Source: Dictyobacter arantiisoli (GTDB taxonomy: Bacteria > Chloroflexota > Ktedonobacteria > Ktedonobacterales > Ktedonobacteraceae). Taken from it: DNA of 43,460 nt. The stretch is taken from NCBI RefSeq assembly GCF_008326305.1, contig NZ_BIXY01000060.1:1-43460 (forward strand). The letters run 5' to 3'. This document shows, one piece after another, positions 6,984-39,130 of this stretch (its first letter is position 1; each line of letters starts with the position of its first letter). The notes beneath the pieces were generated by a model. That model ran no database searches. It was not told the origin of the DNA and saw only the letters and a list, made by a program, of their open reading frames with translations. The position numbers and the translations under genes are program-made.

Positions 6984-7114
6984 ATAACTATTCAGAAGGC
7001 TGGCGTAAAATACTTATTTCTCGCAGATGCTGGCGCGCACTTCACTATCTCGAGCTCAAGAGCGAAAGAGTATGCACGATTTGCATCCTCTACGCGGATC
7101 TTCTGAATAGTTAC
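6984..7114. mobile_element. 131-bp MITE-like element C (TAACTATTCAG termini)
   Basis: The 335-base gap between the dehydrogenase and the protease holds an element bounded by ATAACTATTCAG (6984-6995) and CTGAATAGTTAC (7103-7114). The inverted match extends to 22 bases (6977-6998 against 7100-7121) with two mismatches. The interior has no credible gene. The same 12-bp terminus, with one mismatch, bounds the element at 34594-34720. No clear target duplication is visible here. The rest of the gap shows nothing further I can name. Confidence 0.6.
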
Positions 7115-8580: not shown

Positions 8581-8851
8581 TGTTGCATGAGTCATCCCGG
8601 ACTTTTGAAACAAACGTTCGCTACAATGGGAGTGCAGAGGGCGAAGCCTTCTGCCGGGGTGTGGGGTGTCCCCACATACTTCTTTTTCCCTTTTTGCACG
8701 CCGCCTGCGGCGGCGCGAGGAAAAAGAAAAAGGACAGGGGACACCCCTGTAACCCCGGCAAGGGGCTAGCCGCCCCTTGCAACCCCGCTTGTAGAGCGGA
8801 TTGAAGTCGATCGAACATCTGTTCGAAAAATTCGGGATAACTCATGCTACA
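8581..8851. mobile_element. 271-bp MITE-like element A with about 40-bp imperfect terminal inverted repeats
   Basis: This element fills most of the 583-base gap between the protease and cinA. The left end 8581-8620 and the reverse complement of 8811-8851 match over about 40 positions with scattered mismatches; both contain GCATGAGT and ATCCCG. The interior carries a hairpin with a GAA loop (8634-8654), then a GC-rich segment (8656-8790) with GCCGCC/GGCGGC palindromes and the GGGGACACCCC motif. That segment closely resembles the core of the element at 34594. The rest of the gap shows no gene. Confidence 0.6.
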
Positions 8852-34542: not shown

Positions 34543-34593
34543 CCAGCAAAAAAAGATCCATCTCTCCAGGAGAGATGGATCTTTTTTTGCTGG
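34543..34593. terminator. bidirectional terminator after accA
   Basis: A 25-base perfect inverted repeat (34543-34567 with 34569-34593) has A7 on the left arm and T7 on the right arm around a GATCCATCTCTCC stem. It starts 28 bases after the accA stop. Its right edge TTTTGCTGG is the target sequence duplicated by the adjoining element. Confidence 0.9.
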
Positions 34594-34720
34594 GTAACTA
34601 TTCAGGTACCCAGTACCTCTCAAGCCGCCTTGCGGCGGCGAAGGAGGGTTTTGGCGGGGACACCCCGCACCCCGCGAAGGGGCCTTGCAGGCCCCCTCGA
34701 CCCCCTTGCTGAATAGTTAC
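34594..34720. mobile_element. 127-bp MITE-like element B with 12-bp inverted repeats and 9-bp target duplication
   Basis: Perfect termini GTAACTATTCAG (34594-34605) and CTGAATAGTTAC (34709-34720) bound a GC-rich core with no open frame. TTTTGCTGG at 34585-34593 recurs directly at 34721-34729, the mark of insertion into a single target. The core contains GCCGCC/GGCGGC, GGGGACACCCC and GGGGCC/GGCCCC pairings and resembles the core of the 8581-8851 element. Confidence 0.8.
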
Positions 34721-34769
34721 TTTTGCTGGTACATTCACAACAGGCGTTCAATAGCAGGCATGCTGATAC

Positions 34770-38735: not shown

Positions 38736-38872
38736 AGTATCCTTCTAAGTAACGCCAGATAATGCCCACAGTCACCTTGCATGAGGAAGAGATCAAACCG
38801 AAACACATTCCAGAAGAGTTACAGCATGTTCCGATAGCTCGCTCCTTTTACGCGAAGGATCAAGAGCATGAC

Positions 38873-39058
38873 TCACCAGGCAGGTCTCCTGACTTCTGGC
38901 ACTATTCTTACTAAAGCGCATCAACCCATTCAACATAGATATGAAGTGGAATCAGGATGAGGCAATGATAAGGACAATACCAGTTACAGTAGCGCGACTG
39001 CGTCGGAGTTACACCGACTTCCCTATTCTGTTGAGATGACCTATCTCAACCACCTGAT
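38873..39058 (-). promoter_or_regulatory. cobalamin (AdoCbl) riboswitch
   Basis: Read on the minus strand the region contains GGGAAGTCGGTGTAACTCC, then CGCAGTCGCGCTACTGTAA (the B12 box and its partner), and ends with GAAGTCAGGAGACCTGCC. These are the conserved blocks of cobalamin riboswitches in the right order. It lies 137 bases before the btuF-like gene in the 395-base gap after cobU. It should lower expression of btuF, cobO and cobT when B12 is plentiful. No second copy precedes cobC. Confidence 0.93.
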
Positions 39059-39130
39059 GAATAAATGAAATAATATATCCACGACTAGTATACTGACGAG
39101 TATCTGTTTCTGTCAATGCACAGCAAAACT

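Follow-up and report, generated by a model that had tools for sequence, protein, structure and literature searches.

A conserved hairpin core shared by mini-transposons with different ends in Dictyobacter arantiisoli

Elements A and B and their common core

The window, a 43,460-bp stretch of Dictyobacter arantiisoli DNA (contig C60, NZ_BIXY01000060.1, of a 7.2-Mb genome), carries two short mobile elements, A and B, which share a GC-rich hairpin core. Element A is present in several full-length or near full-length genomic copies. Searched against Rfam at the gathering threshold, the window as a whole yields a cobalamin riboswitch only (RF00174, 83.7 bits; 38862-39072, - strand). The features discussed below are listed here, with the strand given where one is assigned.

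6984..7114: B-type ends around an unrelated core, with neither H2 nor H3 and no clear target duplication
8586..8846: element A, non-autonomous, 261 bp, with ~40-bp imperfect inverted ends CATGAGTNATCCCG
8625..8685, - strand: core unit 1 of element A, with H2 and H3 on this strand; covariance-model match of 69.8 bits
8659..8677, + strand: terminator-like hairpin with T-rich tail at an H2 copy of element A, reading rightwards
8700..8714: H1 dyad of element A, GCCGCC-TGC-GGCGGC, centre of the inverted unit pair, read from the sequence
8725..8789, + strand: core unit 2 of element A (purine tract, H2, H3), covariance-model match of 56.1 bits and pattern match
8734..8750, - strand: terminator-like hairpin with T-rich tail at an H2 copy of element A, reading leftwards
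8737-8747: H2 of element A unit 2, GGGGACACCCC
8753-8780: CCCCGGCAAGGGGC...GCCCCTTGC segment of element A unit 2, with H3 proper at 8758-8780
34543..34593: perfect inverted repeat (gene terminator) adjoining element B
34585..34593, + strand: left target duplication of element B, ttttgctgg, in the trailing arm of the terminator hairpin
34594..34720: element B, IS66-type mini-transposon, 127 bp, with inverted ends GTAACTATTCAG; four full copies
34624..34639: H1 dyad of element B, read from the sequence
34644..34708, + strand: single core unit of element B, covariance-model match of 62.6 bits and pattern match
34656-34666: H2 of element B, GGGGACACCCC
34670-34699: CCCCGCGAAGGGGCC...GGCCCCCTCG segment of element B, with H3 proper at 34675-34699
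34721..34729, + strand: right target duplication of element B, ttttgctgg

One core unit consists, in order, of H1 (a GCCGCC-loop-GGCGGC dyad), a purine tract, H2 (a NNGGGGACACCCCNN hairpin, GGGG-ACA-CCCC with variable outer arms), a CCCC spacer, H3 (a GGCA-stem-TGCA hairpin in a CCCC-GGCA...TGCA-CCC context) and a closing CCC. An earlier, sequence-only reading of this DNA had claimed that the dyad, the H2 block and the CCCC segment follow one another in the same order in both elements, and all three were located in A and in B with identical block order. Absent from that reading is the duplication revealed by the covariance-model matches: the module is present twice in element A, inverted around H1, and once in element B. 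The likeness of the two cores exceeds generic GC richness. Local alignment of the A and B cores scores 35, where dinucleotide shuffles average 16.6 and 1 in 2000 reaches that score; the left half of element A aligned with the B core also scores 35, where shuffles average 15.5 and 0 of 2000 reach it; and GGGGACACCCC occurs 90 times in the genome as opposed to twice for a reversed-pattern control. The ends of A, by comparison, align with the ends of B no better than shuffles do.

Variants of the unit were also observed. At C42:14059-14193 another middle module (CCAATACGGTTCA...TGAACCGTATTGG) stands beside H2 in place of H1 and the purine tract, as it does at C57:5516 and C45:18966, and at one locus in another genome (G302:C1:5817007-5817186) the H3 part of the core (CCCCCGCCATGGGACCTTGCAGGCCCCCTGGA) is repeated after it in tandem 32-bp copies.

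Copy number, distribution and structure of the core

A genome-wide covariance-model search, which had been proposed as a check, identified at least 148 core units at E<=0.01, grouped in 121 clusters, with no more than 150 candidates scored. Nearly all of these are intergenic, with 4 of the 121 inside genes predicted in this analysis from codon usage. Across the phylum, the core is carried by 37 of 301 Chloroflexota genomes, and its copy number in related genomes ranges from 0 to over 100; such patchy occurrence fits a mobile repeat rather than a core cellular RNA. An exact-pattern scan places it in Ktedonobacter, Dictyobacter, Dehalococcoidia/SAR202 and other Chloroflexi. Members of this external set were found by the exact H2 pattern, and the invariance of GGGGACACCCC among them holds by construction and is not used as evidence. 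Pattern matches in Lachnospiraceae, which resemble another repeat, were excluded from membership; at six gut Lachnospiraceae loci, GGGGACACCCCNNNCCCCGGCA lies beside a AGAATATCC...GGATATTC hairpin, apparently a separate repeat family.

The stems of the core are conserved as structures. Compensatory changes, likewise named beforehand as a check, are strong in both H2 and H3 in a set of 60 units drawn from this and other genomes, nearly all of them Chloroflexota: 95.1% of cells pair compared with 81.5% in shuffles, and the covariation score is 0.385 compared with 0.141, a result matched by 0 of 500 shuffles; RNAalifold supports the covariation too. The outer arms of H2 change together (GC 29, UA 16, CG 7, AU 4), H3 changes along its length, and sliding the partners by 1-3 columns destroys the covariation. 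Folded as RNA, both elements are far better than their shuffles (z of -13.1 for A and -4.8 for B).

Transposases, exchange of ends and nested insertion

B-type elements are moved by an IS66 transposase. An autonomous partner lies in the same genome (C151:5051-6590), where a 482-aa IS66 transposase (PF03050, 1.3e-49; NF033517, 313.9 bits against a cut-off of 180) is situated between identical GTAACTATTCAG ends. The target duplication measures 8 bp for this IS and for MITEs with GTAACTACTCAG ends, and 8-9 bp for copies of element B. At the congener locus, the gene adjoining B is present and followed by a terminator-like hairpin without B, which identifies B as an insertion beside a terminator.

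For A-type elements, the mobilising enzyme is an IS4-like transposase. It was sought first in the window's own genome, where the A copies are collapsed at contig ends, and was later found in congeners: A-type ends bracket 1.6-1.9 kb elements in D. vulcani and D. aurantiacus, and the A-type ISs of congeners encode proteins of 466-468 aa between [CT]ATGAGNCATCCC ends, with a Y(2)R(3)E(6)K (YREK) signature (YARRWQIELTWKENK and similar). The signature of the IS4 family and its IS4, IS231, ISH8 and IS50 subgroups have been tabulated (PMC2266710). The A-type protein matches DDE_Tnp_1 at 25.4 bits (cut-off 23); its best score against the curated NCBIfam IS4 models, obtained with a query protein cut off at the locus end, is 40.2 bits and lies below the cut-off of 152, and a 37-aa C-terminal peptide gave no useful plasmid match. 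The assignment is graded as IS4-like because the ~10-bp target duplications marking the IS4 family are missing from most A copies, with exceptions at C42:27752 (TAAAAGCTT) and at one congener locus, L367 (GGTGGAGT, 8 bp). Several A-type insertions without a target duplication, among them L356, L359 and L360, lie midway between the arms of an inverted repeat, as between tgaggtggtgcaa and ttgcaccacctca. The claim that A and B differ in their ends despite a shared core is thereby borne out, the A ends matching an IS4-like and the B ends an IS66 transposon.

The earlier reading had further proposed a combinatorial family in which ends and cores are exchanged. Tabulation of the flanks revealed ends of type A (CATGAGTNATCCCG), B (GTAACTATTCAG), C (TAGTACTCTGTN..TTCATTTGAA), E (CATAGGTGCGAACG) and F (GGCTCTN..TCCTTCCGG) around the core; a label based on a single end is soft, up to 3 mismatches having been allowed. 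In the other direction, a different core, GATACCGTTGGGAAACCC, lies between A ends at C15 and C40, and an AT-rich core between B-type ends at C5, C27 and C34. Since both end types enclose other cores, the combinatorial claim is correct. Neither of the outcomes named beforehand as refuting it, a likeness that dissolves into GC richness or a core confined to one type of end, was observed.

Insertion into the hairpins themselves is observed directly. Element E measures 206 bp, has CATAGG ends and carries two half-units of its own, and exact 11-14 bp GGG...CCC hairpin duplications flank 10 of its 17 full-length copies. It lies in H3 of an element A core at C43 (duplication GGGGCGGCGAGCCC), is nested in an A core also at C47, occupies a C-ended element at C160 (duplication GGGGCGGCAGCCCC) and has inserted in its own H3, giving rise to tandem arrays. 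G, a Dehalococcoidia element with ATAGGAGTGGGC ends, carries the core and has exact 11-bp duplications such as GGGGACACCCC around 6 of its 12 core-bearing copies. The junctions of E and G are ambiguous by 1-2 bp, the target being palindromic. Furthermore, an IS50-like IS with CTGACTTTTTATCACA ends and a GCCGGGGT duplication is found inside an A core in D. kobayashii (L366, L369). Together with the E and G duplications, this upholds the earlier suggestion of a recombination site only in the sense of a transposition target. End pairing in the incomplete assembly found no autonomous element with E ends, and no autonomous source of C, F or G ends was found. Probable traces of deletion are also present: an E copy at C7:73469 is fused to its target at GGGGAC, as a microhomology deletion would give, and in congeners the length of the A core declines in steps from 253 to 125 bp.

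The CAT ends of E and its GGG..CCC insertion sites are reminiscent of IS231, for which a GGG(N)5CCC target and duplications of 10-12 bp are typical. The exact duplications are 11-14 bp for E and 11 bp for G, and E has no known transposase.

Transcription, competing explanations and meaning

Single units between tandem genes lie opposite to the genes by 32 to 13 in the window's own genome (p=0.0066) and by 17 to 4 in other Ktedonobacteria (p=0.007), whereas units between tandem genes in Dehalococcoidia have no orientation bias (10 vs 12). In 130 non-redundant units, H3 contains 36 A.C and 18 G.T oppositions (p=0.02), a modest asymmetry, and A.C on the + strand corresponds to wobble pairs on the reverse strand. 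By the orientation counts, the reverse strand appears to be the one transcribed in Ktedonobacteria. As its order is H3', H2' and then a pyrimidine tract, that is, a hairpin followed by a pyrimidine tract, a transcription-blocking role is plausible. The terminator criterion selects 16 of 52 and 17 of 45 Ktedonobacterial units, compared with 10.4 and 7.0 expected from shuffled tails, none on their other strand, and 2 of 42 units in Dehalococcoidia. Since Dehalococcoidia show neither the tails nor the orientation bias, a universal terminator role was rejected in favour of one confined to Ktedonobacteria. The terminator suggested earlier is therefore plausible for Ktedonobacteria, given the orientation bias and T-rich tails, and unproven. 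Judged from sequence, transcription blocking may tentatively be put forward as the most likely function of the core in this class.

The reading preferred here, at a probability of roughly 0.6, is that the core represents a conserved structured-DNA module which is carried by unrelated non-autonomous families and mixed by nested transposition into GC hairpins. The core would travel inside several such families, and GC hairpins would be preferred insertion targets for elements of the same genome that carry such hairpins themselves, which would be the main reason why ends and cores are mixed. An element landing in a hairpin would duplicate it, the nested composite could be mobilised by its outer ends, and deletion or template switching at short GC repeats may then produce new end-core combinations. 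We infer that nesting and deletion are the main source of the mosaics; as 39 of the 121 core clusters lack any searched end type, nesting in known elements cannot account for every copy. The reverse strand (H3'-H2'-pyrimidine tract) would, in Ktedonobacteria, limit read-through at gene 3' ends, so that insertions there may be tolerable.

A more far-reaching version, possible but somewhat unlikely, would have the core as a Chloroflexota-wide, structure-conserved cassette, the common cargo of unrelated mini-transposons, which combines a landing pad with a one-strand transcription block and thus acts as a mobile, exchangeable insulator. Likewise rather doubtful is the proposal that the core is mainly a landing pad, in which carriers of GGG(N5-8)CCC hairpins attract their own kind, insertion is harmless, and the sequence is kept by targeting and not by host function. 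The exact 11-14 bp hairpin duplications around E and G and the self-nesting arrays of E speak for this proposal, but the target copy gains no obvious benefit, and conservation of H3 and of the CCCCGGCA spacer extends past the bases that are targeted.

The core could also be a functional structured RNA, either a 3'-UTR element or a small RNA, that is made from the reverse strand, hitch-hikes on mini-transposons and has its structure under RNA selection. Stem covariation, the orientation bias in Ktedonobacteria and the excess of A.C over G.T, which lends weak strand-specific support to the RNA structure suggested earlier, are all in keeping with this explanation. The core has no curated Rfam match above threshold; a weak one, which counts in favour of this explanation, to RF02937 (Clostridiales-2; 27.9 bits, E 0.01), is on the same strand and has a GGTGCAG-stem-CTGCCG motif in common, but the rest of the model is unaligned and the score falls far under the 58.6-bit cut-off. 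As the copy number in related genomes is unusual for a cellular RNA and many copies are truncated and shuffled, this explanation is regarded as unlikely.

An origin from REP/BIME-like palindromes mobilised by a RAYT-type Y1 transposase was rejected as very improbable: these are likewise intergenic, high-copy repeated hairpins in composite arrangements (PMC2817692, PMC3733652), sometimes in tandem arrays as here, but a genome-wide search with PF01797 found a single Y1 protein of 146 aa and no RAYT, no GTAG or CGTC tag stands beside the hairpins (alignment A1), the core units are much longer than REPs, and they sit inside transposons of other classes. Equally remote is the notion of unrelated GC-rich hairpins, alike by chance or convergence, which could appeal to all of them being GC-rich palindromes, many beside terminators, but is refuted for the genus by the shuffle and reversed-pattern controls described above and by the absence of covariance-model matches from six genomes of 5-6 Mb that belong to another genus of the family; it may still apply to the Lachnospiraceae and actinobacterial pattern matches.

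The structured-DNA module can be placed among several known systems. Element B is like IS66-family MITEs in its ends, its autonomous IS66 partner and its ~8-bp duplication, but its core differs in that it is not IS-derived and is common to elements of other transposase families. The BOX elements of Streptococcus pneumoniae are modular intergenic repeats of exchangeable parts, whose modules combine within one family; the core is likewise modular, the comparison being one of arrangement and not of sequence. Element A resembles IS4-family MITEs in that its ends belong to ISs with a YREK transposase, but it mostly lacks target duplications, and no hairpin core of this shared kind is reported for IS4 elements (PMC2266710). 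TIMEs are mosaic, non-autonomous Tn3-derived mini-elements reported to generate mosaic transposons (PMC4133298) and are defined by their shared Tn3 ends, whereas the present elements have their inside in common and differ in their ends.

Thus, mini-transposons, mosaic elements and hairpin targeting are already known, and what appears to be new is that elements of different transposase families have one conserved hairpin core in common. In agreement with the earlier reading, which knew of no description of this arrangement, none was found in the open-access literature, as far as its incomplete coverage extends, either of such repeats in Ktedonobacteria or of a shared core. Non-autonomous elements are usually classed by their ends, and their inside is assumed to be that of a decayed parent; here, the inside is conserved and the ends change. 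The core accounts for many intergenic repeats of the Dictyobacter arantiisoli genome. If it acts on transcription, unrelated transposons would share one module that makes insertion near genes tolerable, and if it serves as a landing pad, it would provide an example, open to direct testing, of self-nesting that is targeted to hairpins and gives rise to new mobile elements.
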